A stretch of DNA of 29,013 nt from a virus, in IMG/VR virus record IMGVR_UViG_3300037487_000907, positions 1 to 29,013 of that record; one strand, written 5' to 3'. Under the pieces are notes generated by a model, which made no database searches, had not been told where the DNA came from, and saw only the letters and a list, made by a program, of their open reading frames with translations. The position numbers and the translations under genes are program-made. Positions 2,972 to 29,013 of this stretch are shown here, in pieces (positions within the stretch are counted from its first letter, which is position 1; each line of letters begins with the position of its first letter).

Positions 2972-4945
2972 TCATTGGATCGTAGTATGGATCTCTTGTT
3001 TTTCCGAAAAACCCCTTACCTCGGCCACTAAATCCACTTCCAGCATATCGTCTGTTTGCACGAGATCCACGCTCTTTACAGTCACAATTCGCGGATCGCC
3101 GGAGATAGCTTGCGAAATCCGAAAGCGGCAAAGCTCGAGGTCCACCAGGGTGCTTCGCAATCCGATTAACCGCTTGACGCCTAGACGGCGATACAACAAA
3201 TCAGTGCCCTGTTCAGTGCACAAGCGGATCACGATCGCCTGTTTCAGATTGGCCATCCCCCGCACGATCTTGGCGTCGGTCGATCCCATTTCCGTATCAA
3301 TCGGGATATCGTATTTGACCTGGCTGGAATTGACCGTTACTGGAACCGCTTCCAGGCAAAAGTCCGCCCCGAGGGCCCGCTCTTCCGCCGGCAATTCCGT
3401 GCGCGCACCCAGCACCGGCAAAATACCCATATCCTGCACCGATCGCGTATTGGTCGGGATTGCGATTTTCGATCCAATACCCAGCACACCGGTGAACGGA
3501 CGCTCGAGCGGGCCAGAAGCTCCTCCGATACCCGTCGAACCTGTACCCACGCCTCGAGCCAATGGGGGAGACGCTTGGTTATCGATGTAAGGGGGTTTGA
3601 GCCCATTAAACATCGCCAAAAGCTGCCATTTCCGCGCGTCTCCCAGATACCGTGCTGCCAGGCTGGGCAAGGTGTCATCCGCGGTGAGGACGATTTGCCG
3701 AGCATTGCGGTACACTGGAATGGTGCTCCCGGCCAGAATATCCCCCTCGCCGATCTGCACGTCCCCAGGAGTCAGCTCGGTGCCCCTTTCCCGCACCGCC
3801 TCGAACGAGGTCGGCGCCGGGCTTATGAGGGCCTGCACTTGTCGATTGGAATTGATCCCTCGGCGGAATTCCTGGTCCTCCCGCGTCTTTCGCACCGCGG
3901 CCTCGACGGGCTCCTCGAAAAGCTCCGGGTGCGCCAATATCAAATTGATCGCATCGGCCACCTTTCGGATTTTCTGTAATACCTCCTCTGGTACCGATTT
4001 ATCCCCTTCATTGCGATCCATGTACATCGCGATTGTCCCGGCCGCGGTTTCCCAATTTGTAAGGTGCGCCGCCACATAATCAAAAGTAGCATCGATCAAT
4101 TCCGCGCGCCCCTCGACATAATCCTGGACCGCTTCCCCCACCTCGACACCTCGAGCGATCAGGGTATCGATGTTTTTCACAAACCCCATAATCACGCCCT
4201 CCAGCGCGATCAAGTCATTGATGGCCCCCTGCAATAGATCGAGCCCTAATTTCACCAGGCTCATAGCGCCTTTTACGAGATCGAAAATGGATTTGTCCTC
4301 GGAAAAATCCGCGTCAATGTCTTCTCCGCGCTCGACGGCAAACAATTCGATATCGTAGTTGTACAGCAACGGCTGGGCGCGATCCCGCAGAAGGGTAAAC
4401 CGGTTAGGGACCACCACCCAGTGCTCCATATCCTGGGGGTTGTGGTAAATCAGCTTGGTGTCTTTCGCCGTGGCTGGGTCGGCTTTCAGGTCCGCGTAGG
4501 CCCGGAATACTGAATCCTGGAGATACTGGAAATGGCGCTGCCCGGAAATTGCGGAAAGTACGGTATCCGGCAATTTCCGCGAGTATGATTGTTTCGAATT
4601 CGCAATATCCACCGCTTTGGGGGAATTAAATTCTACTTTGAGCGATCGCGGTTTCCAGCCAGTATTCCCCCGCAACCGGATTATTCTCCGGACGATCCCA
4701 TTTTCTTCTGCCCAGAGCCCGCCCCCCTGGGTAAAGCTCAATTCCGCGGCAAACGGCTCCTCCATGGAATAGCTCTGGGGCGGAAGGATAATCGGGAAAA
4801 GAAAAGTAAGATTTTCGATATAAGCGACTTCTTTCGGGACCTGCAATTCAAAAAAATGGAGAAATCGTTTCTGAAAATTTTCATCTTGGGCCATTTTTTG
4901 CCGGAGAAGCTCTTTGACATATGCGAGCGTTGAAGCTACCGCCAT
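2972..4945 (-). CDS. Baseplate wedge fusion protein: N-terminal adaptor, LysM-like and gp25-like domains
   Basis: This 657-residue protein starts at ATG 4945, which has AAAGGAG 7 nt upstream; the longer open frame upstream lies inside the neighbouring gene and is rejected. Residues about 30-210 are a beta-rich adaptor that includes KLPDTVLSAISGQRHFQYLQ. Residues 215-360 are mostly helical. Residues about 412-455 look like a LysM fold (VLTADDTLPSLAARYLGDA, then WQLLAMFNGL), closed at 488-498 by LGIGSKIAIPT; T4 gp53-type wedge proteins carry such a fold. Residues about 525-645 resemble the T4 gp25/GPW family: KIVRGMANLKQAIVIRLCTE, then LYRRLGVKRLIGLRST, then an alternating-strand end. In other phages these parts are often separate genes. 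It immediately precedes the J-like gene, as gp25 genes normally do. Confidence 0.8.
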   Translation of the reverse strand: MAVASTLAYVKELLRQKMAQDENFQKRFLHFFELQVPKEVAYIENLTFLFPIILPPQSYSMEEPFAAELSFTQGGGLWAEENGIVRRIIRLRGNTGWKPRSLKVEFNSPKAVDIANSKQSYSRKLPDTVLSAISGQRHFQYLQDSVFRAYADLKADPATAKDTKLIYHNPQDMEHWVVVPNRFTLLRDRAQPLLYNYDIELFAVERGEDIDADFSEDKSIFDLVKGAMSLVKLGLDLLQGAINDLIALEGVIMGFVKNIDTLIARGVEVGEAVQDYVEGRAELIDATFDYVAAHLTNWETAAGTIAMYMDRNEGDKSVPEEVLQKIRKVADAINLILAHPELFEEPVEAAVRKTREDQEFRRGINSNRQVQALISPAPTSFEAVRERGTELTPGDVQIGEGDILAGSTIPVYRNARQIVLTADDTLPSLAARYLGDARKWQLLAMFNGLKPPYIDNQASPPLARGVGTGSTGIGGASGPLERPFTGVLGIGSKIAIPTNTRSVQDMGILPVLGARTELPAEERALGADFCLEAVPVTVNSSQVKYDIPIDTEMGSTDAKIVRGMANLKQAIVIRLCTEQGTDLLYRRLGVKRLIGLRSTLVDLELCRFRISQAISGDPRIVTVKSVDLVQTDDMLEVDLVAEVRGFSEKQEIHTTIQ

Positions 4946-4956
4946 GGAAGTCTCCT

Positions 4957-5433
4957 TTACAAAATGGGCATGGGCCCAATCGGAGGCGGAAAAACACCCA
5001 AGCCACCCACGATCATAATTGCATGAATCGCGTTCGCGATTGTCTGGGCTGAATCCGCCTTGCTTTTTTTCCCGGTAGTATTGGCCAGGAATACCGCCAC
5101 CAGCGCCGGAGCCAAACCAGCAAGCCCTGGAGGGGGGGTAATGACCGTCGCAGGAGGCCAGGCTACCGCTGGGATCAGGGCCCCCCAGTAGGCGACAATG
5201 GCCGCCTGGAGCTTCACCGACCCCTGTCCTGGCCCGCTCATGCCCGCCAGCGCCCCTTGCATGGCGGCCTTGGCCGCCACCAGTGCCGCCGGAGCTACCG
5301 GAGCCCCATTGCACCCTGCGCCCTTGAAATACTCATCGAAGCCCGTAGCCCAATTGCTACAAGCGGTCACCTCGGTGTCCGTATTCGCCATATTCTCGAT
5401 CTGGCTTTTCAACGTGCTCGCACTCAGCGCCAT
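4957..5433 (-). CDS. Conserved-looking baseplate-region protein of unknown function
   Basis: This 158-residue protein starts at ATG 5433, one base after the stop of the spike gene, with GGAGCG about 6 nt upstream inside the spike coding end. It is unusually rich in Ala, Gly and Pro and quite hydrophobic: APAALVAAKAAMQGALAGM, a PPPGLAGLAPALVAVFL stretch and a C-terminal IHAIMIVGGLGVFPPP. None of these is a clean signal peptide. Two Cys (25 and 41) sit in the N-terminal third. I do not recognise the family. Its position between the OB-fold spike and the wedge fusion suggests a small tail-tip or baseplate component. The hydrophobic stretches could pack in an oligomeric helix bundle or against membrane during infection. 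Confidence 0.65.
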   Translation of the reverse strand: MALSASTLKSQIENMANTDTEVTACSNWATGFDEYFKGAGCNGAPVAPAALVAAKAAMQGALAGMSGPGQGSVKLQAAIVAYWGALIPAVAWPPATVITPPPGLAGLAPALVAVFLANTTGKKSKADSAQTIANAIHAIMIVGGLGVFPPPIGPMPIL

Positions 5434-5434
5434 G

Positions 5435-6385
5435 TTACGCTCCGTTGTCGGGAAATTTGAGCTGATTGGAATTGATGTTTGTGTTCCAGGCGGTCGCTGG
5501 GGTGTTGCTTGGCGTCCCGCTGGGCCCCATCCCCGTGGGCACAGTCACCGCCTCCAGCCAGCTCTTGAGCGTCCCCCAAAGCTGCTGCAAGTGGTCGGCG
5601 ATGGCCGCCTTGACCGCCCCGTTGCCCACGATTAGCTGGGCTGTCGCCGCCGACCCCGACCACTCAATTGACGCCCCGTCGGCGATCTTCAGAATGAGCT
5701 TGGCTCCGGTCGGAAGTCGGACGGTGAAATTCCCGGCCGAGCCGTCGGTTTTCGGCGCGGCCTCTTTCCCATCCGCCGCCAGCTTGCCGTTGTTCGCGTA
5801 AGTGGTATCTACCAGGAAATCCCCCGCGTCGGTCACGCCCCACCAGATCCCATGGTGTTTCCAGATTTCTGGGTCCCCGTCCGCAACCTTGAGCTTCATG
5901 CGAAAACCCAGGTCTTTGGTCTCGTTTCCCATGTCCGTGGACGGGTGCGGCAACCCAGACAGGATCACCGGCTGGGATAGATTGTCGTTCAAAAACCCGA
6001 TCAGGACGTGATCCCCGTCGAGATAGGCGGGATTCGCGATCGCGCCAGAGGAGTCCAGGCTGCTCGAGAGGTCCACCGTGGTGGCTCTGGGCTTCCAGAC
6101 GGCCCCGTGGTGCATTCCCCCGCGGGGTTGGGATACCAGCACCCCCCGAAGCCCAAACCACCTCTGGCGGGAGATGGAGGGCATTACGAGCACATCGCAG
6201 TAGACGGCCACCGGCGGATTGCTGGTGTCCTCCTCGTGCGGGTGCCCGGGGGAGTCAGAGACGTAGGTGGCCATGACCACCCCCCGCAACATGAGCCCGC
6301 CCGCGCGCTGCTCGCCCCGACTCGCCGGCCGTCGGGGAATGCCCTCCTGGATTCTTGTGCCAAACCCTATGACATTACTAGCCAT
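5435..6385 (-). CDS. Baseplate spike protein with OB-fold (gpV/gp45-like)
   Basis: This 316-residue protein starts at ATG 6385, overlapping the hub stop as TAATG with GGGGAG upstream; the longer frame to 6496 overlaps the hub gene and is rejected. Residues about 33-148 fit the OB domain of tail spikes: a core open strand region, then DGDHVLIGFLND followed by QPVILSGLPHP, the characteristic end where the OB fold turns into the shaft. Residues 155-260 carry short repeating beta strands (DAGDFLVDTTYANNG, NFTVRLPTGAKLILKI, ASIEWSG) compatible with a triple beta-helix spike. Relatives sit under the hub and pierce the outer membrane or cell surface. I see no lysozyme domain and no HxH metal-binding tip at the C-terminus. 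Confidence 0.8.
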   Translation of the reverse strand: MASNVIGFGTRIQEGIPRRPASRGEQRAGGLMLRGVVMATYVSDSPGHPHEEDTSNPPVAVYCDVLVMPSISRQRWFGLRGVLVSQPRGGMHHGAVWKPRATTVDLSSSLDSSGAIANPAYLDGDHVLIGFLNDNLSQPVILSGLPHPSTDMGNETKDLGFRMKLKVADGDPEIWKHHGIWWGVTDAGDFLVDTTYANNGKLAADGKEAAPKTDGSAGNFTVRLPTGAKLILKIADGASIEWSGSAATAQLIVGNGAVKAAIADHLQQLWGTLKSWLEAVTVPTGMGPSGTPSNTPATAWNTNINSNQLKFPDNGA

Positions 6386-18198: not shown

Positions 18199-18675
18199 CT
18201 ACGCACCTTTCCGTAAATCTGCCCGGATTTCTTGGATCACCTCTGTTTTTATTTTGCGGTATCCCTCATCCAGCCGTTGAAATATCACTGGCTTCAATCC
18301 GCGCACCTCTTCTTTTACATAATCGACGACGTTGAATAGGGCATCCACCTTGCGCCCGCGGGTGGCTTCCATGGCCGCGTCATCCCGGACAAACTGCTCC
18401 CATCTGTCCCGGATTTTTTCGATCCCGTCCTCGAGCCGCTTCAACGCGCCATTCTCCCGCAATTCGCATTCTCTTCGCGCTTCGATCGTATCCTGCGCGC
18501 TTTTTCGGAGCGCCTCTATCTGCATGGTGTACTCGCTCCGGAGCACCTCGAACCGTTGCGCGTCGTGGTCTCGATAGCTCTTGAGCAATTGCCGGAAAAG
18601 GATACCAATCACCGTTGTGGTTACGGCGAAACTACCCACCACGGCCGTGATCAGAGTGCGCGTTTCACTGTCCAC
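18199..18675 (-). CDS. Membrane-anchored helical protein, unknown function
   Basis: This 158-residue protein starts at a GTG at 18675 with AAGGGG 6 nt upstream. The start lies within the last codons of the receiver-domain gene (11-bp overlap), so the two are probably translationally coupled. Residues about 8-27 form one transmembrane segment (ITAVVGSFAVTTTVIGILF). The remaining 130 residues are highly charged helix with heptad-like spacing (EALRKSAQDTIEARRECELR, then LEDGIEKIRDRWEQFV), ending in a basic helix. A single Cys sits at about 70. The topology suggests a membrane anchor with a long cytoplasmic or periplasmic coiled coil. It could be a spanin-like lysis protein or a signalling partner of the receiver protein. 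The family is not recognised. Confidence 0.7.
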   Translation of the reverse strand: MDSETRTLITAVVGSFAVTTTVIGILFRQLLKSYRDHDAQRFEVLRSEYTMQIEALRKSAQDTIEARRECELRENGALKRLEDGIEKIRDRWEQFVRDDAAMEATRGRKVDALFNVVDYVKEEVRGLKPVIFQRLDEGYRKIKTEVIQEIRADLRKGA

Positions 18676-19075
18676 TGGTAGCCCCTTCTAGCCCGAGTAG
18701 GGCTCGTATTTTAGGTAGCAGTAAAGCCAGCGGACATACGGGCTTTTCTAGCCAGTCGTTAATTTCTTCCCGCATGAGGGTCATTTCGATATCCACCCCC
18801 AGAATAGGGGCGAATACTATGATCGGCAATTGCACCGGGGTGATTACCAGCGTCCGCCGAATATATCGGATCAAGTGCCAATCCCCCGCTTTTGCGATTT
18901 CGAAATCCACCAAAAATAAATCAATAGGAGGCCCGGCCTCGATAAGCTGGGTCAACGCCCCTACCGTTGATTGGGTGGTAATTGCGCAAAAAGCATTTTC
19001 GCGCAGGTATTCCGCAAAATTGTGGAGTACCGAGCGATCGGTATCCGCGATCAGGATTCTATTTTTCGCGCGCAT
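18665..19075 (-). CDS. Stand-alone response-regulator receiver (REC) domain protein
   Basis: The start is ATG 19075, where the receiver fold begins (MRAKNRILIADTD); the open frame reaching 19279 runs through the previous gene and is rejected. The product is 136 residues, one REC domain with no output domain. The visible receiver features are an acidic pocket at D11 and D13, a phosphoacceptor position at D57 in IDLFLVDFEI, and the conserved Lys as K111 in DWLEKPV. The usual Thr/Ser after beta-4 (LPIIVFAPI) is Ala89, so switching may be weak or phosphorylation-independent. No Shine-Dalgarno sequence is visible before the ATG. It is the first gene of a four-gene cassette and overlaps the membrane-anchored gene. 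A stand-alone REC gene inside a virion operon is unusual. Confidence 0.8.
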   Translation of the reverse strand: MRAKNRILIADTDRSVLHNFAEYLRENAFCAITTQSTVGALTQLIEAGPPIDLFLVDFEIAKAGDWHLIRYIRRTLVITPVQLPIIVFAPILGVDIEMTLMREEINDWLEKPVCPLALLLPKIRALLGLEGATSGQ

Positions 19076-19112
19076 GTAAATATGGTAGCCGGATTGACTG
19101 GGATAGGGAAGA

Positions 19113-19436
19113 TTAACCGCGCCGCAGAAATGCCACCAGCTCCACGTCCGAGGTTGCGCTTTCCGTGCCTGCGCTTTGCAGCCAGACCTCTCGGCACTCG
19201 GCCGGGCCCTCCCAGCCATCGATAAACGAGGTCTCGGAGGGTACGGGCACCAGCACGTAGTTTTCGCCCGCGGTAGCATCCTCTTCCGTGAAAAATACCA
19301 TTACATCATTATCCGCCGCGCGGATTTTCAGGTATTTCGCCACGGACCCAAAACGGTGATTCGTCGGCTCGGAGTTAGACAGGCCGTCAATCCGATATAC
19401 GTGGGGCCATCCACCTCTCGACTCCATGATACTCAT
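19113..19436 (-). CDS. Small beta-rich virion-region protein of unknown function
   Basis: This 107-residue protein starts at ATG 19436 with AAAGGCGG about 6 nt upstream; another ATG three codons later is possible. It is almost entirely beta strands: VAKYLKIRAADNDVMVFFTE, ENYVLVPVPSETSFID, CREVWLQSAG and a C-terminal SDVELVAFLRRG. This looks like a compact jelly-roll or beta-barrel unit of the kind found in head decoration and tail accessory proteins. It follows the two 115-residue paralogues in the probable surface-protein block, at 18 bp distance. The exact role is unknown. Confidence 0.65.
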   Translation of the reverse strand: MSIMESRGGWPHVYRIDGLSNSEPTNHRFGSVAKYLKIRAADNDVMVFFTEEDATAGENYVLVPVPSETSFIDGWEGPAECREVWLQSAGTESATSDVELVAFLRRG

Positions 19437-19454: not shown

Positions 19455-19802
19455 TCAGGCCGCGCCGTCGCCCACCTGGCCCTTGAGCTTCCCGAGAATC
19501 AGGATGTCCAACTCGGCGCTGGTGCTCGGGCCCGTGATCGTGAATCCGGTAGTGAGCCGCACATTGCGGGCCAGCGTCGCCTCATTGGCGGGATTGGTAT
19601 GGTTGTGGATGATCAGCGCGTAATCCGCGTCCGCCATGTCCTGGAGGCCCTGATCCGCGAAAACGATCACCCCGTCCGCCGGCATGGGAATCATGAGGAC
19701 CTGTCCCGACAGACCTGTTTGCGCCGTACCCACAATTGTGGGCATCCCTTGATCCTTGCAAAACGGGATGAAATCCCGTGCCTTCTTGACTGAGTTACTC
19801 AT
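19455..19802 (-). CDS. Tandem paralogue B, probable virion surface or decoration protein
   Basis: The start is ATG 19802 (MSNSVKKARDFIPFCKDQG), with AAAGGTG about 9 nt upstream; the longer open frame overlaps the neighbouring gene in another reading frame and is rejected. The 115-residue product matches the preceding gene along its whole length: IPFC.DQG.PT near the start, QTGLS, a DMAD(A/G)DYAL.I.NHT(N/D)PA segment, RLTTGFTIT and the shared end LDIL..GKLKGQVGDG.A. This is a tandem duplication that has diverged. The pattern is beta-rich and fits a capsid decoration or small surface protein, an inference from the position after the head genes and from size. No catalytic motif is visible. Confidence 0.75.
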   Translation of the reverse strand: MSNSVKKARDFIPFCKDQGMPTIVGTAQTGLSGQVLMIPMPADGVIVFADQGLQDMADADYALIIHNHTNPANEATLARNVRLTTGFTITGPSTSAELDILILGKLKGQVGDGAA

Positions 19803-19821
19803 GGTCTTGCACCTTTCTGGA

Positions 19822-20169
19822 TCAAGCGGGCCCGTCGCCCACCTGCCCCTTAAGTTTTCCGACCACCAGAATATCCAGCACATCGGCCGCATCCGTGTTG
19901 GTGATGGTAAATCCCGTGGTCAATCGATCCACGCGTGCCACCAGCGCCTCGTCCGCCGGGTCCGTGTGATTCTGGATGAAAAGAGCGTAGTCACCATCCG
20001 CCATGTCCGCCAGCCCGAAAGTCGCGAAAGTGATCACGCCCGCCACCGGCATGGTGGTGAGGATCGTTTGAAACGAAAGTCCCGTCTGCGAGGCACCCAG
20101 AAAAGTGGGAATGCCCTGATCCTGGCAAAACGGGATTGAGTCATGCGCCTGTTTCGCTAGATTGCCCAT
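19822..20169 (-). CDS. Tandem paralogue A, probable virion surface or decoration protein
   Basis: The chosen start is ATG 20169 (MGNLAKQAHDSIPFCQDQG), which has GGAGGG 6 nt upstream; the ATG two codons earlier touches that site and is unlikely. This gives 115 residues, the same length as the downstream paralogue. Shared features are the SIPFC/FIPFC box, the QTGLSFQTILTTMPVAGVI strand pair, the DYALFIQNHTDPADE segment and the C-terminal LDILVVGKLKGQVGDG. A 19-bp spacer separates the two copies. Two similar small proteins can form mixed oligomers or decorate different capsid sites; which applies here cannot be told from sequence. Confidence 0.75.
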   Translation of the reverse strand: MGNLAKQAHDSIPFCQDQGIPTFLGASQTGLSFQTILTTMPVAGVITFATFGLADMADGDYALFIQNHTDPADEALVARVDRLTTGFTITNTDAADVLDILVVGKLKGQVGDGPA

Positions 20170-20215
20170 GATCATCCCTCCGGCTGGAGTACCCAGCCCT
20201 TGAATGGTTGCTCTG

Positions 20216-20608
20216 TCACCTGCCCTTGGGCCTCCCAGGGCCCCTCTTGTAGCTCGACGAGGGCTCGGGCAGGGGTGCCGGCTTCGGGGCCTCCACGGGC
20301 AACGGAGCGGGCTCGAACGCCGCTTCTGCTGCCCCCGAGGGAATCAGCTCGGGTCCGGGTCCAGGCATGGGGGCCGGAACTTCGACCATGGGCTCGGTGG
20401 GCACCTTGGGCTTTTGCTCCGCTTCCGGCTCTGGCTCCGCCTCCGCGGGTTGGCGGTACATTTTCCAGGCAACCTTGTCTTTCATGAGGCGCCTGGCGTG
20501 CTCGGGCGCGACCCCGTGGGCGATCCCTTTGGGGTCGATCTCGTAAACGTGCCCTTGCACCTTCACGGATGTCCCGCGCGCATGCAGGTAAGTATTTTTG
20601 AGGTCCAT
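20216..20608 (-). CDS. Pro-rich protein with C-terminal AT-hook-like motif
   Basis: This 130-residue protein starts at ATG 20608 with AAAGGGAG upstream. Residues 1-50 form a small beta-rich head (GTSVKVQGHVYEIDPKGIAH, then a helix EHARRLMKDKVAW). Residues 53-118 are a disordered linker dominated by Pro, Ala and Glu (AEPEPEAEQKPKVP and similar). The last residues read YKRGPGRPKGR, a basic GRP core flanked by Lys and Arg as in AT-hook motifs that bind the DNA minor groove. It lies between the duplicated-domain protein and the tandem paralogues. A virion protein with a DNA-binding tail could contact packaged DNA, but the motif is short and could also be a chance basic tail. The family is not recognised. 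Confidence 0.65.
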   Translation of the reverse strand: MDLKNTYLHARGTSVKVQGHVYEIDPKGIAHGVAPEHARRLMKDKVAWKMYRQPAEAEPEPEAEQKPKVPTEPMVEVPAPMPGPGPELIPSGAAEAAFEPAPLPVEAPKPAPLPEPSSSYKRGPGRPKGR

Positions 20609-20633: not shown

Positions 20634-22304
20634 TCAAGTCAGGCCCATCTGGATGATTGCGTCGAGAATTTTGATCCCGTTGTAGGTGTGAGCACTCGAA
20701 TTCACGCCTGAAGTGCTCACGCCCGTGGCGATCGTCACGTCGGCATCGATCGTCCCGTCCAGCCGCACCAGCACCACCTCGGCGGCCGCCGCCAAATCCA
20801 CCGGCGTACCGATCAGGTTGCCCAAGCCAACGATTACGTGATCGTCATCACCCGATCCAGCGGATAGACTAATTACCACGCTTGAAACAGTTTTGAAAAT
20901 CTTGGTACCGGTCAAGCTCTTTCCGTTACCCGCACCGTCCGGGCTCATGGTCTCCACCACTGCCCGACCGTTTATGTCCAGGCCAGTTACCGTGATCGTG
21001 CCCGTAGTGGAATTGTCCCCATCGGTGAGCGTGATCACGATATTTCTTGGCACGTCTGGCTGGGCCGCGATGACGAGCGTACCATCATCCCAGTCCACTG
21101 ACTCCACGATCCGATCATCATCTACCAGGATCGGAGCGCCCAGAGACAGCGGGAAAGCCGCTGCTCCGGATAGGAGCGCAGTCAGCACCCCGCGCTCCGC
21201 TACCGTCACCGCCACCCGTCCAGCCGCCTGCTCGGTGGTCAGCCAGACTTTCTCTGCATGCGAGGGGAGGTGGGTCAGCTCATCGGCGGTCAAGCAATTC
21301 TTCTCGTGATTGGCTGTAACCCAGGACACCTCGTCCGCCGCAGGCAAACAGAAAGCCAGGACGTTTGTTCCCAGGAAAGCCTTTTCCGCCACCGTCGGGA
21401 TGTTATCGACCGAGATGTTTCCGCCGGTCCCGGTAACATAGGCTTCCAGCCGCTTGACGCCGTTGTACACCAGGGTCGAAACGTTCACGCCAGACAGACT
21501 CACGCCCGCCGCCAGCGTCGGAGCCGCCACCACTGCCCCGTTGAAAACCACCGAATGGACCTGATTGGTGTTGCTGATATTGGTGGGTAAACCGATCAGG
21601 TTCCCGGTACCGATCACGATCAGATCCGCGCCCGTCTCGCCCGACGTTCCCGAAATCACGCAAGAGACAATCGAGGCGAAAATCTTGGTTCCCGTGAGCG
21701 TCTTTCCAGTCCCGTTACCCGCCGGGCTCATGACTTCCACCACCGGCACGGCATTGCGATCGAGTCCGGTGATAGTCAGGGTCCCCGTGACCGAATTGTC
21801 CGCGTCGGTCAACGTCGCCGTGACGTTTCTGGGGACATCCGGTTGCTGGGCGATCGAGAGTGCTCCAGCCGCCCACGCCGCCGAAACCACGATCCGATCC
21901 ACGTCCGCAAGGGCTGGGGTACCCAGATTGGCATAAGCCGCGTCCTGGTCGCCGACCATGCCCTCCAGAAATTCCTTTTCTGCTCCCGTGGGCACCCGCG
22001 CATATTCCGCGTCAGTCAGCGCGTGATTGGCAACATTGGCCTCGAGCCACGATGCTTCATCCGTATCCACGCCGACATGAGTCGCCGCTTGCTGGGTAGT
22101 GACCCATGAGGCCTCGGTCGCAGTGACCCCGGTCAGGTCGTTTGTCTCCTGCCCCGTGAGCCACAATTTTTCTGCATGCGACGGGATGTCGTCCACGTCG
22201 ATGTCATTGACGGCTGCCCCCGACTCCAGGAATTCCTTTTCAGCCGCGGTTGGAATCCGCGCCTTTTCCTCCTGGGAAAGGGTGCATTGTAATTGATTCG
22301 CCAT
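20634..22304 (-). CDS. Virion surface protein with two copies of a beta domain and AEK-x-(F/W)-L repeats
   Basis: This 556-residue protein starts at ATG 22304 with AAAGGTGG upstream. Residues about 127-290 and 388-550 are two copies of the same beta-rich domain, marked by QPDVPRN, a TLTD.DNS.TGT strand, MSP.G...GK(T/S)LTGTKIF and GNLIG.P. Before each copy lie short helical repeats with a core such as AEKEFLE, AEKLWLT, DEASWLE or AEKVWLT, spaced about 19-26 residues. The next gene downstream has one copy of the same domain. The layout of adhesive-looking beta domains on helical linkers fits a head fibre, head decoration or tail surface protein. It is in the block after the capsid protein gene, which favours the head. 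Function is inferred. Confidence 0.8.
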   Translation of the reverse strand: MANQLQCTLSQEEKARIPTAAEKEFLESGAAVNDIDVDDIPSHAEKLWLTGQETNDLTGVTATEASWVTTQQAATHVGVDTDEASWLEANVANHALTDAEYARVPTGAEKEFLEGMVGDQDAAYANLGTPALADVDRIVVSAAWAAGALSIAQQPDVPRNVTATLTDADNSVTGTLTITGLDRNAVPVVEVMSPAGNGTGKTLTGTKIFASIVSCVISGTSGETGADLIVIGTGNLIGLPTNISNTNQVHSVVFNGAVVAAPTLAAGVSLSGVNVSTLVYNGVKRLEAYVTGTGGNISVDNIPTVAEKAFLGTNVLAFCLPAADEVSWVTANHEKNCLTADELTHLPSHAEKVWLTTEQAAGRVAVTVAERGVLTALLSGAAAFPLSLGAPILVDDDRIVESVDWDDGTLVIAAQPDVPRNIVITLTDGDNSTTGTITVTGLDINGRAVVETMSPDGAGNGKSLTGTKIFKTVSSVVISLSAGSGDDDHVIVGLGNLIGTPVDLAAAAEVVLVRLDGTIDADVTIATGVSTSGVNSSAHTYNGIKILDAIIQMGLT

Positions 22305-22319
22305 CTAGCGCCACCTTTC

Positions 22320-22946
22320 TCAGTCAGGGTTGGGGACAAGGCGGGTCGGCTGGATCACCACAAACATGACCTTGCTCCCGTCGTAGGTCGAGCCCGAGAC
22401 ATCCACGCCGCTGGTGTGCTCGCCGGTCGCGATCACCGGGGTTGCGACCCGCGCCACGCCCAGATACGCATGGCGCACCTCGTCCGAATCCTCGATGTCC
22501 ATCGGGATACCGATCACGGTACCGCAGCCGATATTGATCATATCGGTTGCCCCGCCCGCAGATCCCGTCACCCCTGAAAGAGTCGCACTTGTGATCTTGG
22601 CGAAAATCACCGTCCCGGTTTTGGTCTTGCCGACGGTCAGCGCCCAAGTGAACGACTCAGTGACCGCGCGACCCAGCATGTCGGTACCGATTACAACGCA
22701 AGTGCCGCTCGACGAGTCGTTTACGTCGGTAATCGCGTAAGTGAGGTTGCGAGGGACATCTAGCTGGGCCGCGAGGCTCAGTACGCCGTCGGCGATGGGC
22801 TGATCGTCCACCACCTGGTCAACGTCGGCCAGCTCGGGCGCACCCAGAAAAACCGTGAAGCCCATGGCCCGGAGCTTGGTCAGGAGTACTTTTTCTTCGG
22901 CGGTCGGGATACGATTCTTTTCGGCGCTGCTAACGGTGTATTCCAT
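22320..22946 (-). CDS. Single-domain homologue of the duplicated virion surface protein
   Basis: This 208-residue protein starts at ATG 22946 with AAAGGA upstream, in the narrow space after the capsid terminator. Residues 1-30 hold one of the AEK-type helical repeats (RIPTAEEKVLLTKL). The rest is one copy of the beta domain found twice in the next gene: GAPELADVDQVV, then LDVPRNLTYAITD, a strand with GTDMLGRAVTESFTW, TGTVIFAKITSATLSG and GTVIGIPMD. This is the first gene after the major capsid protein, the common place for decoration proteins. Its closeness to the two-copy protein suggests they came from one ancestor by gene and domain duplication and may share a binding site on the capsid. 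Confidence 0.75.
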   Translation of the reverse strand: MEYTVSSAEKNRIPTAEEKVLLTKLRAMGFTVFLGAPELADVDQVVDDQPIADGVLSLAAQLDVPRNLTYAITDVNDSSSGTCVVIGTDMLGRAVTESFTWALTVGKTKTGTVIFAKITSATLSGVTGSAGGATDMINIGCGTVIGIPMDIEDSDEVRHAYLGVARVATPVIATGEHTSGVDVSGSTYDGSKVMFVVIQPTRLVPNPD

Positions 22947-23031: not shown

Positions 23032-24465
23032 TTACGGGGCTCCCACGTACCCGGCCGGACGGCCGATGTTCTTGATAAGAGCCACCTTTCCCGGGGTGTA
23101 GAGCACCGGCGTGCCGTAAAGCAACTGCATCCATCTGATACTGCTGTCGATTGTCGCCAGCGGGATTTTGACCATCGGAGCTAACTGCTTGAAACTCATG
23201 CACTCTAGGTTTTGCTGGAACAGGAAGGCGGACGTGGTGTAGGGAATGTTGGCATTCAGCTCGATGATGACCTGCTCACCGGCTCCCGCCGCATTGGCGA
23301 CCTTCAAGACGAGCCGGGTGGTCGTGATCGCGCCGGCCTTTTTGGTCTTGTAAATCTCGTACCACTCGACTTCGACCGCGCCCGAGGGGGTCACGCCGAA
23401 AGTCACCATGTCGCCGGCATCGACCGAGATGGCCGAGCCATCCACGTTCACGGCCGCCGAGCGGCCGAACCGATTGCAGGCCTGGATCTTGAAAAAATAC
23501 GAGCCCGCGTCATCCGCGCCATACTGCGAAAGCACGTTTGCGGTATCGGTTGCCGACGTGCTGATCACCGGAGAAGCCGGCCGCAGGGTGGCCGAGCCCA
23601 CAGCCGCCGTGGGGGCGCCGCCGTCGGTGACAAAAACATTGGATTCGAATTGCACGTCACCAGCCGGGCTCGTGAACGCCTTGACGTCCAGACCGACCGT
23701 GTTGCCGTTGCCCGCGAAAGTGTTGTGCCGCTCTTTGGGGAAAAAGGTTTTCACGAGGTCGGCCTTGCACTTAGGGTTGCAGTGCAGGTGGGTGGGAAAG
23801 CCATAATTCGGCGCATCGAAAACCGTGAGGCACGCGTCGGTCAGGCTGTCCTCGGACAACGGCTCGCCGCGCATGTCGATGATGTTGGTTGCGGGAGAAT
23901 TCGCCGTGATCAGCTTCTCGAAACCGTCGAATTGCAGAGCGCAAAGGTCGGAATTTCCGTAGAAAAGCGCCCGCTCCAGGATCTTGAGCAGGTGCATGGT
24001 GCCGTTGACTGTCTCATTTGCGATGATCGATCCGTGAGCCGGCTTCACAAGGCTCATTACGTGGCTAACTCGGCGAGAAGTCCCGAGAAACTTCACCACG
24101 GCGTATTTTCGCGCATAAACCGAATCGTCCTCGGCTGGGAGACTGCCCTCTTCGATGAAACCAGCATCCGGATTCTGGCCGTAGCTGCTGATTTCATTGT
24201 GTTCTTCAACCGTATTGAAGGCCGGAATCTTGGGGAGCGACTTGAATAGCTTGAGGTGTTCCATGCGGTAGGTTGTCGATTTGAGCGTTGACTCCAAGCT
24301 CTCGACTCTCAAGGGGAATCCTTCCCCAGCCGAAGATCCGGGATTGTTGATATCGGCGTTCGCGAGGAGCGCCTTATTTAATTCGTCCACATCCTGCTGG
24401 GACGACTGCCCAAAGCCCTCTACTCCCTGGTAATCCTTCCAAGAAACCATGTCGAGACCGAACAT
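23032..24465 (-). CDS. Major capsid protein (HK97 fold, SPO1/A511-like) with inserted Ig-like domain
   Basis: This 477-residue protein starts at ATG 24465 with AGGAGG 8-9 nt upstream. By recalled comparison it resembles the capsid protein of Listeria phage A511 and its SPO1-type relatives: ERALFYGNSDL followed by LQFDGFEKLI, the IIDMRGEPLSEDSL box, NTVGLDVKAFTSPAG, and the C-terminal FKQLAPMVKIPLATIDSSI with VALIKNI. Residues about 296-410 are an inserted beta domain (SYFFKIQACNRFGRSAAVNV, then VEVEWYEIYKTKKAG) of Ig or Fn3 type, at the place where A511 also carries one. The N-terminal 60 residues, rich in Gln, Asp and Asn, may be a delta-like region removed by the protease, though I see no cleavage-site motif. 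Subunits form the icosahedral shell. Confidence 0.9.
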   Translation of the reverse strand: MFGLDMVSWKDYQGVEGFGQSSQQDVDELNKALLANADINNPGSSAGEGFPLRVESLESTLKSTTYRMEHLKLFKSLPKIPAFNTVEEHNEISSYGQNPDAGFIEEGSLPAEDDSVYARKYAVVKFLGTSRRVSHVMSLVKPAHGSIIANETVNGTMHLLKILERALFYGNSDLCALQFDGFEKLITANSPATNIIDMRGEPLSEDSLTDACLTVFDAPNYGFPTHLHCNPKCKADLVKTFFPKERHNTFAGNGNTVGLDVKAFTSPAGDVQFESNVFVTDGGAPTAAVGSATLRPASPVISTSATDTANVLSQYGADDAGSYFFKIQACNRFGRSAAVNVDGSAISVDAGDMVTFGVTPSGAVEVEWYEIYKTKKAGAITTTRLVLKVANAAGAGEQVIIELNANIPYTTSAFLFQQNLECMSFKQLAPMVKIPLATIDSSIRWMQLLYGTPVLYTPGKVALIKNIGRPAGYVGAP

Positions 24466-26628: not shown

Positions 26629-28470
26629 TTAATGGATTACCCCCTTTTCCTGCGACTCCTCCTCGTCCTCTTCTTTCGGCTTCTCCTCGTCCTCGGGCTC
26701 GCTGCTGATCGGCTTGTTTTTCGGCCGGCCGACATTCCGGAGGTAATTGTCCACAAGCCGCTGGTGCCGCTCCTCGCTCCCCTTCCGCGCTTCCTTTGAT
26801 TGGGCCTCGAGCGTATCCGCGCCCTCGAGCTTCCGAGGCACCACCGGCAACGGCTCTTTGTAGAGGTAAACGCGCTTATCCCGCTTGATCGACTTGCGAT
26901 TGCGCTTGACCTCTTGCTCGGCCCGGGGAGTGGTCAGCGCGATAGCCTCGGGCACCGACCGGCTGGGTACCGCCGTGTGCCGCTCGGCGTCCCCCAGGAG
27001 GTAATTGACCATGGTGCCGGGCCCCGGGTTACGAGCCACGGCCATCCCCGTGGCTCCCCCGATTTCCGTGCTCACCTGCACCCCACCATTTTGCGCGCTC
27101 TTCTCCAGCGGAATGATCAGCCGCGGGCCCTCGTGTTTTTTCAGCATGCCGTCTGAGATAGGCTTGGTGGCTTGCGCCCACCGCTTGAATTGCTCCATAT
27201 CCATCTCGCTGGTGGTCACAAAAAACGACTCCGGGTCCGTGTAGTGGATCGAGTAACAGGTCTCGGCCGCTTCCTTGCTCGTGAATCCGAGAAAAACTTT
27301 GTCCTCGTCGTACAACCCGCTTTTTGGATTCTGCTGGTGGATAACGAAGGCCTTCGGCGCGTCCGGCCAGGGCCCCAGGAAAACGTCGATACCGTCCCCG
27401 TCCGCGCCCTCGGTGCGCTCGATAAACCCGTAAGCCGCTTGCATGACCGTCTCGCCGGCCTCCCCGTCGGCGGTTCGCCATTTGCGCGTGCCGCCCACCG
27501 GCGTCTCAATGGTGATAGGCAAGCCCTGGAAATTGACCTTGCCGACGATCTGGTAGGATTTCTGCAAATCGTTTTCCTGGAGAAGCGCCAGCCGTAGCTC
27601 GCTCGAGCTGGCATAGGATTTCCCAAACTCCCCACCGGGCACCAGCTCGCCCTCCTCATTGTATCCCCAGCCGTCCGGGATACGCACGAGGACACACTGA
27701 CAATTCGGATGGATCGGGCCCACGGTCGGGAGCCAGTCATTGACCTTTCGCCCCACGTTTGTGGCATTGGCCTGGAGGTCCTCGAGCCGGAAGATCCGAG
27801 GATACCCGTCGGGGGAATTGTAGAGCGCCTTGCACCTCGGGCAGGCATCGGGCATCGATCGCTTGGCTACCTGCGCCCCCGACCCGTGCCGCTTGCGGTA
27901 GTGGTCCGCCTGGCCGTTCAGGGTGGCCGTCTGCTTTTCGGTGATAGCGATCCGATCCCAGTCCCGGGCCCAGTCCCTCGTTTTCCAGCCAAGATCCGAT
28001 TTCAGCTTTTTGATCGTCTCCCGCTTGGCGATATTTTCAGATACCTTTTCCCGAATATCGCTCTCGAGCCGTTGCCGGAGCTGGTGGTCGGCCTCGATCA
28101 GGACATTGCCGGTCTGGACATCCACCCTATTACCTAGTCCGCGGACATACTGCGCCCCCTGGTGCCGGGCCATGCTCACCGCATGCTTTTCCGCCGCGGA
28201 CAGGGGAATGGGATTTTTCGAAAGGTAGGCCTTGAATTCCGGATAGGACATCCTGGCCACCTGGGGATTTTCCAGGGTGGCGAGGAGCTGGCCGTACAGA
28301 TAGGCATCCTCGACGAAATTGACCTGGGGATTTACCAGCCCGAGCTTTTTCAGCTTCTCCAGGATCTCCCCGGCCACGGCCTCGGGGCCGATCGCCGAGA
28401 CGATAAAGGCCTCGTGGTAATTCTGGATGATCTCCCGAATCTGGTAAAGCTGGTGGTCATTCAAGAGCAT
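26629..28470 (-). CDS. MuF-like minor head protein fused to phage inorganic-pyrophosphatase-like domain
   Basis: This 613-residue protein starts at ATG 28470, overlapping the methyltransferase stop by 10 bp. Residues about 130-265 fit the MuF/SPP1-gp7 minor head family: a helix with IAITEKQTATLNGQADHYRK, then CPRC (210-213) and the family's closing IHPNCQC (253-259); the Cys and His probably bind zinc. Residues about 310-435 resemble the InPase domain seen in phage polyvalent proteins: a GETVMQAAYGFI strand region, GADGDGIDVFLGP with its acidic cluster, KAFVIHQQNPKSG and an acidic YDEDKVFLGF. Residues 440-560 are unassigned, and the tail is very acidic (EPEDEEKPKEEDEEESQEKG). MuF proteins sit near the portal and may be ejected with DNA. 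Pyrophosphatase activity is not proven by this sequence. Confidence 0.8.
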   Translation of the reverse strand: MLLNDHQLYQIREIIQNYHEAFIVSAIGPEAVAGEILEKLKKLGLVNPQVNFVEDAYLYGQLLATLENPQVARMSYPEFKAYLSKNPIPLSAAEKHAVSMARHQGAQYVRGLGNRVDVQTGNVLIEADHQLRQRLESDIREKVSENIAKRETIKKLKSDLGWKTRDWARDWDRIAITEKQTATLNGQADHYRKRHGSGAQVAKRSMPDACPRCKALYNSPDGYPRIFRLEDLQANATNVGRKVNDWLPTVGPIHPNCQCVLVRIPDGWGYNEEGELVPGGEFGKSYASSSELRLALLQENDLQKSYQIVGKVNFQGLPITIETPVGGTRKWRTADGEAGETVMQAAYGFIERTEGADGDGIDVFLGPWPDAPKAFVIHQQNPKSGLYDEDKVFLGFTSKEAAETCYSIHYTDPESFFVTTSEMDMEQFKRWAQATKPISDGMLKKHEGPRLIIPLEKSAQNGGVQVSTEIGGATGMAVARNPGPGTMVNYLLGDAERHTAVPSRSVPEAIALTTPRAEQEVKRNRKSIKRDKRVYLYKEPLPVVPRKLEGADTLEAQSKEARKGSEERHQRLVDNYLRNVGRPKNKPISSEPEDEEKPKEEDEEESQEKGVIH

Positions 28471-29013
28471 TTTTGATCCTCCAGTACAGGATACCGCTTA
28501 ATCTTATTTTGCATAGATACGGGTTGGTTTTCTGACAAAATCGGCTTTCGAATCCCATGAACAATTCTCCGCCGCGCGATTGTCAGATACTCCGGATCAA
28601 GTTCCACCCCGATAAATTGCGCACCCTCCATCAATACCGCTATCCCCGTTGACCCCGAGCCCAGAAAAGGATCGACCACCCGCCCACCTGGGGGAGTCAC
28701 CAGCCGCACCAGGTAGCGCATGAGCGCGACCGGCTTCACCGTAGGATGGAAATTACGCCCACCGCTGGAGCGCCCCGCGCCCGCCCGGGGGCTTTCCAGC
28801 CCAGCACTCCCCTCCTGTCGCCCGGTCATCTCCCCCGCCAGCACCCAGTCCATCGTCTCAAGCCCGGCATTACGCTCCGCGGGGGATACCTTGGCGCAGT
28901 AGAAAAACCGGGAAGCGCCTCCCGAATTAGCCTCTAAAACTGTAGAACGCTTCCCTGTACCGCGTGTAATACTCCCAAAAATAGCAATTGAATTATTTGC
29001 GGTATCTAACTTT
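28461..29013 (-). CDS. DNA amino-methyltransferase (N4/N6 type), partial C-terminal part
   Basis: The frame is open to the right edge, so the N-terminus is missing; an internal ATG at 28853 is not the true start because coding upstream continues with the typical ASRFFYCAKVSPAERNAG segment. The visible 183 residues hold HPTVKPVALMRYLVRLV (motif X region), the AdoMet-binding VVDPFLGSGSTGIA (motif I) and FIGVELDPEYLTIARRRI (motif II). The catalytic (D/S/N)PP(Y/W) motif must lie beyond the window, as expected for the beta class, in which it precedes motif I. The enzyme would methylate phage DNA at adenine or cytosine amino groups, probably to evade host restriction. Its stop overlaps the MuF-like gene, so it is co-transcribed with head genes. 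Confidence 0.9.
   Translation of the reverse strand, partial: KLDTANNSIAIFGSITRGTGKRSTVLEANSGGASRFFYCAKVSPAERNAGLETMDWVLAGEMTGRQEGSAGLESPRAGAGRSSGGRNFHPTVKPVALMRYLVRLVTPPGGRVVDPFLGSGSTGIAVLMEGAQFIGVELDPEYLTIARRRIVHGIRKPILSENQPVSMQNKIKRYPVLEDQKCS

Follow-up and report, generated by a model that had tools for sequence, protein, structure and literature searches.

Two neighbouring phage proteins built from a shared beta domain are probable decorations of a SPO1-type capsid

We have found that a virus record of 29,013 bases from IMG/VR (IMGVR_UViG_3300037487_000907, here called the window; its positions are those of the whole stretch) encodes, beside the gene for its major capsid protein (MCP), two related proteins, B208 and A556, that are built from the same kind of beta domain. 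We think it probable that B208 and A556, which are known here from genes and models, are capsid decoration proteins of a SPO1-type myovirus. Their parts are as follows, and a purine-rich GAAAGG lies a few bases 5' of the ATG of both genes.

22320-22946, minus strand: B208 (208 amino acids, aa), an N-terminal helical arm and one beta domain, from its open reading frame (ORF) and from relatives lying directly 3' of the same MCP type
22857-22946, minus strand: N-terminal arm of B208, residues 1-30, from the arm profile (B208 being among its seeds) and from model helices at residues 7-10 and 16-26
22380-22844, minus strand: beta domain of B208, residues 35-189, from a profile match
20634-22304, minus strand: A556 (556 aa), five arm motifs, a beta domain, four arm motifs and a second beta domain, from its ORF, BLASTP to B208 and a model
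21945-22283, minus strand: helical repeat block 1 of A556, residues 8-120, from motifs, with repeats 1 and 5 matching the arm profile; low model confidence
21462-21923, minus strand: beta domain D1 of A556, residues 128-281, from a profile match
21171-21428, minus strand: helical repeat block 2 of A556, residues 293-378, from motifs; low model confidence and insignificant arm-profile matches
20679-21140, minus strand: beta domain D2 of A556, residues 389-542, from a profile match, with the strand order of D1

The initial annotation of this locus placed two copies of a beta domain in A556 (residues 127-290 and 388-550) and one in its neighbour, and the bounds listed above, obtained by profile matching, fall close to that proposal. 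The domain is about 155 aa long; D1 and D2 are 51% identical to each other and each is 40-41% identical to the copy in B208, and the two whole proteins match by BLASTP at E 8e-35. In the AlphaFold model of B208, made with 17 aligned sequences and having a mean predicted local distance difference test score (pLDDT) of 82.7, twelve strands form a beta sandwich behind the two helices of the arm. The model of A556 has a mean pLDDT of 59.8, with block means of 71-87 for residues 141-290 of the D1 region (52-60 before them) and of 71-87 for residues 401-500 of the D2 region (49-62 after them), D2 being modelled without aligned homologues apart from the stray tails of two rows. All 13 strands of D1 overlap strands of D2 at a constant offset of 261 residues. 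The two halves of A556 thus share one fold with the same order of strands, and the possibility that structure prediction would give them different folds can be set aside.

We read the domain copies as old duplications under purifying selection, because third codon positions have diverged far between them (0.35-0.43 identity) while 40-51% of the residues are kept. Among the helical repeats of A556, likeness at the DNA level survives in fragments, amounting to 78% over 46 nucleotides (nt) between repeats 1 and 5 and to 82% over 34 nt when the second repeat of block 1 is compared with the third of block 2. The members of the latter pair are spaced by 918 nt, which differs from the 783 nt between the beta domains, and so the blocks seem to have gained or lost repeats since the duplication.

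The argument for decoration comes from gene order. The recognised genes of the window all lie on the minus strand, in the order Mu-F-like minor head protein, maturation protease, scaffold, MCP, B208, A556, small head-region genes, adaptor, terminator, tail sheath and baseplate; B208 is the first gene 3' of the MCP gene, across a gap of 85 bp, A556 is the second, and both precede the recognised tail genes. The window MCP is 35-38% identical, over 91-97% of the length, to the MCPs of SPO1-like phages, which we take to be Herelleviridae. Three neighbouring genes matter here.

23032-24465, minus strand: MCP of the SPO1 type (phrog_752, E 4.7e-82), the likely docking partner
20216-20608, minus strand: C130, a small gene that marks the insertion point; where A556 and B208 are absent its counterpart (in some cases recognised by eye) lies directly 3' of the MCP gene
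19822-20175, minus strand: a small head-region gene of 117 aa, conserved in relatives and given as context, outside the repeat family

When used alone as queries against viral contigs, A556 and B208 found no relative; a profile of the three window domains matches 27 viral contigs and one bacterial genome record, and a wider profile of the domain adds 15 contigs. This gives, together with the window and with Microcystis phage Mwe-Yong1, a family of 45 records, nearly all of them IMG/VR contigs; Mwe-Yong1 is the one isolate record found and the sole hit when four members of the family were compared by tblastn with 50,697 phage records. Near-copies among the 45 (L021/L022/L061, L018/L024, L028/L029 and L055/L056) reduce the independence of the counts. 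In 31 of the 45 records (in L031 the MCP assignment is weak, E 6.5e-5) an MCP gene was identified no more than 2.4 kb from the family gene, which is 3' of it in 30 of these 31 and 5' in L026, and in 23 of the 45 the two genes are directly adjacent, with gaps of up to 173 bp. The adjacent MCPs belong to four families, phrog_752 (12 records), phrog_10 (7), phrog_1005 (3) and phrog_247 (1), where the MCPs of relatives were assigned to phrog_752 by a profile seeded with the window MCP, and those of L064, L067, L068 and Mwe-Yong1 to phrog_10 by similarity to L063 and L075. The Mwe-Yong1 member, the hypothetical protein QXN68005.1, is encoded directly 3' of the annotated MCP gene and consists of a single beta domain that is 31-34% identical to the window copies over the aligned part, but its neighbour is an MCP of another family and it has no recognisable helical arm.

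Two good profile domains occur in A556 only, among the proteins of the 45 records, a count that leaves out a second match in an L037 protein at an independent E-value (iE) of 0.38 and two partial matches in a 110-aa ORF of L038; L037 and L031 have further separate genes bearing the domain. The gene is also not a fixed companion of its capsid protein. Twelve relatives were found through their MCP, and in all nine that can be read downstream (L003, L005, L006, L008 and L010-L014; the other three end too soon) the family gene is missing behind the MCP gene, which is directly followed by a C130-like small gene, recognised partly by eye; the domain profile gives no match in these nine. The family gene is an accessory gene beside the MCP, dispensable as decorations are, and because its presence behind the MCP differs among relatives we take the locus to hold none, one or, in the window, three units.

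Among 18 family members searched against curated models, no Pfam model matched at E up to 0.01 (there were three single weak matches, at 0.048-0.078), PHROGs matched one member (phrog_8198, E 0.0076) and NCBIfam matched one, weakly and to an enzyme model (0.0031); A556 itself matches phrog_8198 at E 0.0027, and neither A556 nor B208 has a Pfam family at E up to 1. No model in these three collections fits the family convincingly. Through its gene position next to several capsid types, an unnamed domain family, mostly from phage contigs without an isolate, is linked to capsid decoration.

A short helical motif precedes the domains. Regular repeats of an AEK type had been reported there from the first look at the sequence, and we find nine of them in A556, five in block 1 (starting at residues 21, 44, 63, 82 and 108, with spacings of 23, 19, 19 and 26) and four in block 2 (starting at residues 306, 324, 350 and 369, with spacings of 18, 26 and 19), together with a single motif in B208 that starts at residue 17, before its beta domain. 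The exact form AEK-x-(F/W)-L is present in only five of the nine, the others being degenerate (TEASWV, DEASWL, DEVSWV and AERGVL), and a tenth match at residue 508 was dropped as lying inside a beta domain. A loose pattern, which was written after the repeats had been seen, counts nine in A556 against a shuffle mean of 0.12 and a maximum of 3, with none of 5,000 shuffles reaching nine. A motif matrix built from six homologous N-termini, B208 included and none of them from A556, gives at a threshold of 4 five sites in A556 against a shuffle mean of 0.05 and a maximum of 2 (2,000 shuffles), and misses the four degenerate motifs. The repeats, 18-26 residues apart, are thus above shuffle controls, and block 1 resembles block 2 (two-sequence BLASTP, E 2e-7).

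In relatives the corresponding element is an N-terminal arm before the domain, with a consensus of approximately ME-x-T-(I/L/V)-S-x-x-x-K-x-R-(I/V/L)-P-x-x-x-E-x-x-x-(L/I). It is recognisable in 13 of the 15 records in which the family gene lies near a phrog_752 MCP, the exceptions being L023 and L051, in whose domain proteins it is not recognised, and in none of the 30 other records. Nine of the 13 were used to build the arm profile and the other four (L022, L024, L056 and L061) look like near-copies of seeds; the independent parts of this statistic are the absence of the arm from the other records and the repeats of A556, which were not used in the profile and of which repeat 1 (iE 6e-8) and repeat 5 (iE 1.2e-3) match it. 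Judged by these profile matches, the helical motif of A556 and B208 is the N-terminal arm that the family has in relatives beside the same capsid protein. Because the arm is seen only beside this capsid type, it may dock on capsids of this MCP type. Docking by the repeated arms of A556 is also plausible: beta-tulip decorations bind the capsid mainly through an N-terminal arm, according to a review (PMC7602432), and for this reason we infer that the blocks of A556 are repeated docking arms.

The arm may also occur apart from the domain. L023 has, further along, two genes whose products begin with MENTVSSAQ and then diverge; the first encodes a protein of beta-helix type (Beta_helix E 1.4e-5, narrowly below cut-off) that, when searched against viral contigs, matches its own contig only. 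The two reach the arm profile at an insignificant E of 0.16-0.38, the link being made by about eight near-identical first residues, and this hints that the arm could be a reusable part tied to this capsid type. A search for new arm fusions with a DNA pattern for MENT-x-SDA returned 12 stretches, namely seven family genes of known contigs and five unrelated frames, and gave no new fusion. A bolder form of the proposal would make the hairpin a portable capsid-docking tag for this MCP family, used also by the L023 genes, and A556 a polyvalent strap that lays up to nine tags (five near the motif, four degenerate) over several capsid subunits and links two sandwiches into a non-covalent chain mail; we regard this form as improbable. 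What we offer is a candidate for a short arm that docks on SPO1-type shells. If docking is real, the arm would serve as a simple tag for the display of proteins on these capsids, with A556 showing its multiplication; if not, these genes would be a further case of a phage decoration or head-fibre protein whose parts have been shuffled.

Under the decoration reading, the unit would be a jelly-roll-like beta sandwich of about 155 residues headed by a short helical hairpin at the N terminus. The hairpin of B208 would dock on the HK97-type shell whose protein is encoded by the adjacent gene, its sandwich would sit on the surface, and B208 would probably oligomerise at three-fold or quasi-three-fold sites, as most known decoration proteins do; the same review describes most of these as beta-rich and most as binding at such sites (PMC7602432). 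A556 would then be two units in one chain with the hairpin multiplied (five and four, some degenerate), a longer decoration that might either strap several capsid subunits or hold one sandwich off the shell for host contact. T4 Hoc and N4 gp17, strings of immunoglobulin-like domains on the capsid according to the review (PMC7602432), are likewise elongated head decorations with multiple beta domains, but the domains of A556 are separated by helical blocks and neither A556 nor B208 matches a Pfam family at E up to 1. The earlier suggestion had been of a flexible fibre or decoration protein that binds a periodic surface by repeated short helices; gene order upholds the surface role and the decoration, while flexibility, a fibre shape and binding of helices to a periodic surface are conjectural.

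Structural comparison points in a compatible direction. Most of the rows that Foldseek and VIA give for B208 are jelly-roll-like folds of viral capsid proteins, of the nucleoplasmin type or of carbohydrate-binding proteins; VIA ranks first the trimeric cement protein of Helicobacter phage KHP40 (7dou; Z 5.6, root-mean-square deviation (rmsd) 4.8, 114 aligned residues) and second a chain of the KHP30 capsid entry (7dn2; Z 5.3). Both chains are beta-rich, with a core similar in size to that of B208, and 7dou is titled as a trimeric cement protein, but they have 124-126 residues, are 9% identical to B208 and superpose at an rmsd of 4.6-4.8 with Z under 8. Beta-tulip proteins of the lambda gpD type are absent among the 50 VIA rows listed for B208, which proves nothing. 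By sequence, a search of the PDB with the three-sequence domain profile gave no chain at E up to 1, and A556 itself matched no chain at E up to 10, results with which remote kinship is compatible. Nine targets in BFVD reached a Foldseek E of 0.001 or better, all of them unnamed or uncharacterised (A0A0F7L2V0, A0A6J5SB67 and others; E 1.4e-8 to 7e-4, 11-21% identity). Two neighbours of D2, AlgX (Z 8.2) and a tail chain of Sf11 (8.1), were set aside, the model being of low confidence and many unrelated beta-sandwich proteins scoring near them.

Several observations weigh against decoration, or against parts of the scheme set out above. The repeat blocks of A556 are predicted at block-mean pLDDT values of 30-58. 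Foldseek of B208 against the PDB gives no match at E 0.001 or better, for which reason we claim no fold family, and the VIA Z of 5.6 lies below the tool's telling level of 8 and cannot establish kinship. Of the A556 repeats, the first and the fifth alone match the arm profile with any weight, two more reaching it at iE 170. In the domain tree D1 falls weakly with L027 (82/83) and D2 and B208 each stand alone, so that the three copies are ungrouped and a simple local duplication is unsupported. Lastly, within the stretch available no MCP gene was found nearby in 14 of the 45 records (L016, L019, L025, L027, L032-L036, L038-L040, L042 and L074); the domain is also found within proteins of 599-614 aa (L033, L035, L036 and L040), fused to a beta-helix (L034; Beta_helix 3.9e-23) and beside a portal or terminase gene (L039 and L032), with protease genes nearby, or no clear context, in other records. 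Given these other contexts, the domain is a general virion module, and its presence is no proof of decoration.

The same contexts bear on two other explanations. One is that A556 and B208 are neck or tail parts, as the members embedded in the 599-614-aa proteins, a weak match of L035 to a tail protein family (phrog_807, E 7e-4) and the records with no MCP gene found nearby might suggest; in the window, however, the adaptor, terminator, sheath and baseplate genes lie beyond C130 and the small head-region genes, and we consider this very unlikely. The other, which is compatible with either a decoration or a fibre, is that head, neck or tail proteins carry the beta domain as a module for adhesion or carbohydrate binding, and that A556 would present two such modules to host or environmental glycans. 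Carbohydrate-binding modules (CBMs) do appear among the low-ranking structural neighbours, CBM16 and CBM32 for B208 by Foldseek and CBM16, CBM61 and CBM6 for the A556 model, and both the beta-helix fusion and the variety of virion contexts would suit such a role. Yet likeness to a jelly roll is very common, viral capsid jelly rolls score equally, and the direct adjacency to the MCP gene in 23 of the 45 records is better explained by capsid binding; the adhesion module seems to us possible but doubtful.

A further alternative concerns A556 alone. It might be a trimeric head fibre like gp8.5 of phi29, with the repeats forming a three-stranded helix-turn-helix stalk and the beta domains the base, the tip or both, B208 being a plain decoration. 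The gene for gp8.5 also adjoins the MCP gene, and gp8.5 is described as a homotrimer whose chains begin with two beta barrels that resemble each other and which has a three-stranded helix-turn-helix stem (PMC6542822; for the barrels and stem also PMC7602432). A556 shares with gp8.5 the tandem similar beta domains and short helices that open with T-x-x-(N/E)-K-x-x-L, the stem of gp8.5 having three T-x-x-N-K-x-x-L repeats 26 residues apart that resemble T-x-x-E-K-x-x-L here. Relatives also have a putative fibre cassette (L017 7605-12223, in which one gene has a weak YadA-stalk match, E 4e-5, below cut-off) without a counterpart in the window, and A556 might fill that role, although the window, being a fragment, may miss a fibre gene located beyond its ends. 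There is, however, no sequence kinship (best BLASTP E 2.7), and the barrels of gp8.5 are about 55 residues long against 155 in A556. The layout differs too: gp8.5 has a barrel pair at its N terminus and its helical stem at the C terminus, after the beta part, whereas A556 runs helices-beta-helices-beta, with helices before each beta domain and not after a base. The spacing of the A556 repeats is irregular (18-26), no stalk is predicted with confidence, and the likeness of motifs was noticed post hoc, the pattern occurring four times in gp8.5 against 0.49 expected, a number reached by 17 of 5,000 shuffles. A helix-turn-helix stalk would fit the sequence of A556 as well as docking arms do, but on balance we regard a fibre of this kind as unlikely.

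Returning to decoration as the reading we favour, we add several minor observations on the family and on the head region of the window. The 599-614-aa proteins of L033, L035, L036 and L040 share an N-terminal 'LKDSGxLWSxxEL' segment and may be neck or adaptor proteins. In four relatives the MCP gene is interrupted by a group I intron (Rfam RF00028, 65-81 bits), namely in L061 (4437-4685), L057 (4430-4695), L043 (5443-5713) and L014 (8226-8480), that of L043 near the 3' end and the other three near the 5' part; the window gave no match in the same Rfam search. In L023 the MCP coding region (4449-5821) falls into two overlapping ORFs; no intron was matched there, and the break is a frameshift, either real or from sequencing. 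L043 (CP070677.1 1765050-1777550) is a head module of this phage type within a 4.3-Mb chromosome of a Latescibacterota metagenome-assembled genome, followed by an ORF that by eye resembles a Ser/Thr kinase, and gives a hint of a host group and of a provirus remnant.

In the window, 19822-20175 and 19455-19892 (both minus strand) are tandem copies, 62.6% identical, of a head-region gene of about 115 aa that is single in each relative where it is recognised. Between the head and connector genes, 18665-19279 (minus strand) encodes a domain like a response-regulator receiver (PF00072, 2e-5, under cut-off), its true start probably lying further in, and a similar receiver ORF (1.7e-6, under cut-off) lies ahead of the protease gene in L008 (4162-4587, plus strand). 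At the other end of the head genes, 26629-28470 (minus strand) joins the Mu-F-like minor head protein (a weak Pfam match) to a domain of inorganic-pyrophosphatase type (PF18823, 8e-37), and 28461-29012 (minus strand), which runs off the window end, encodes the C-terminal part of an N6/N4 DNA methylase (PF01555, 1e-19).

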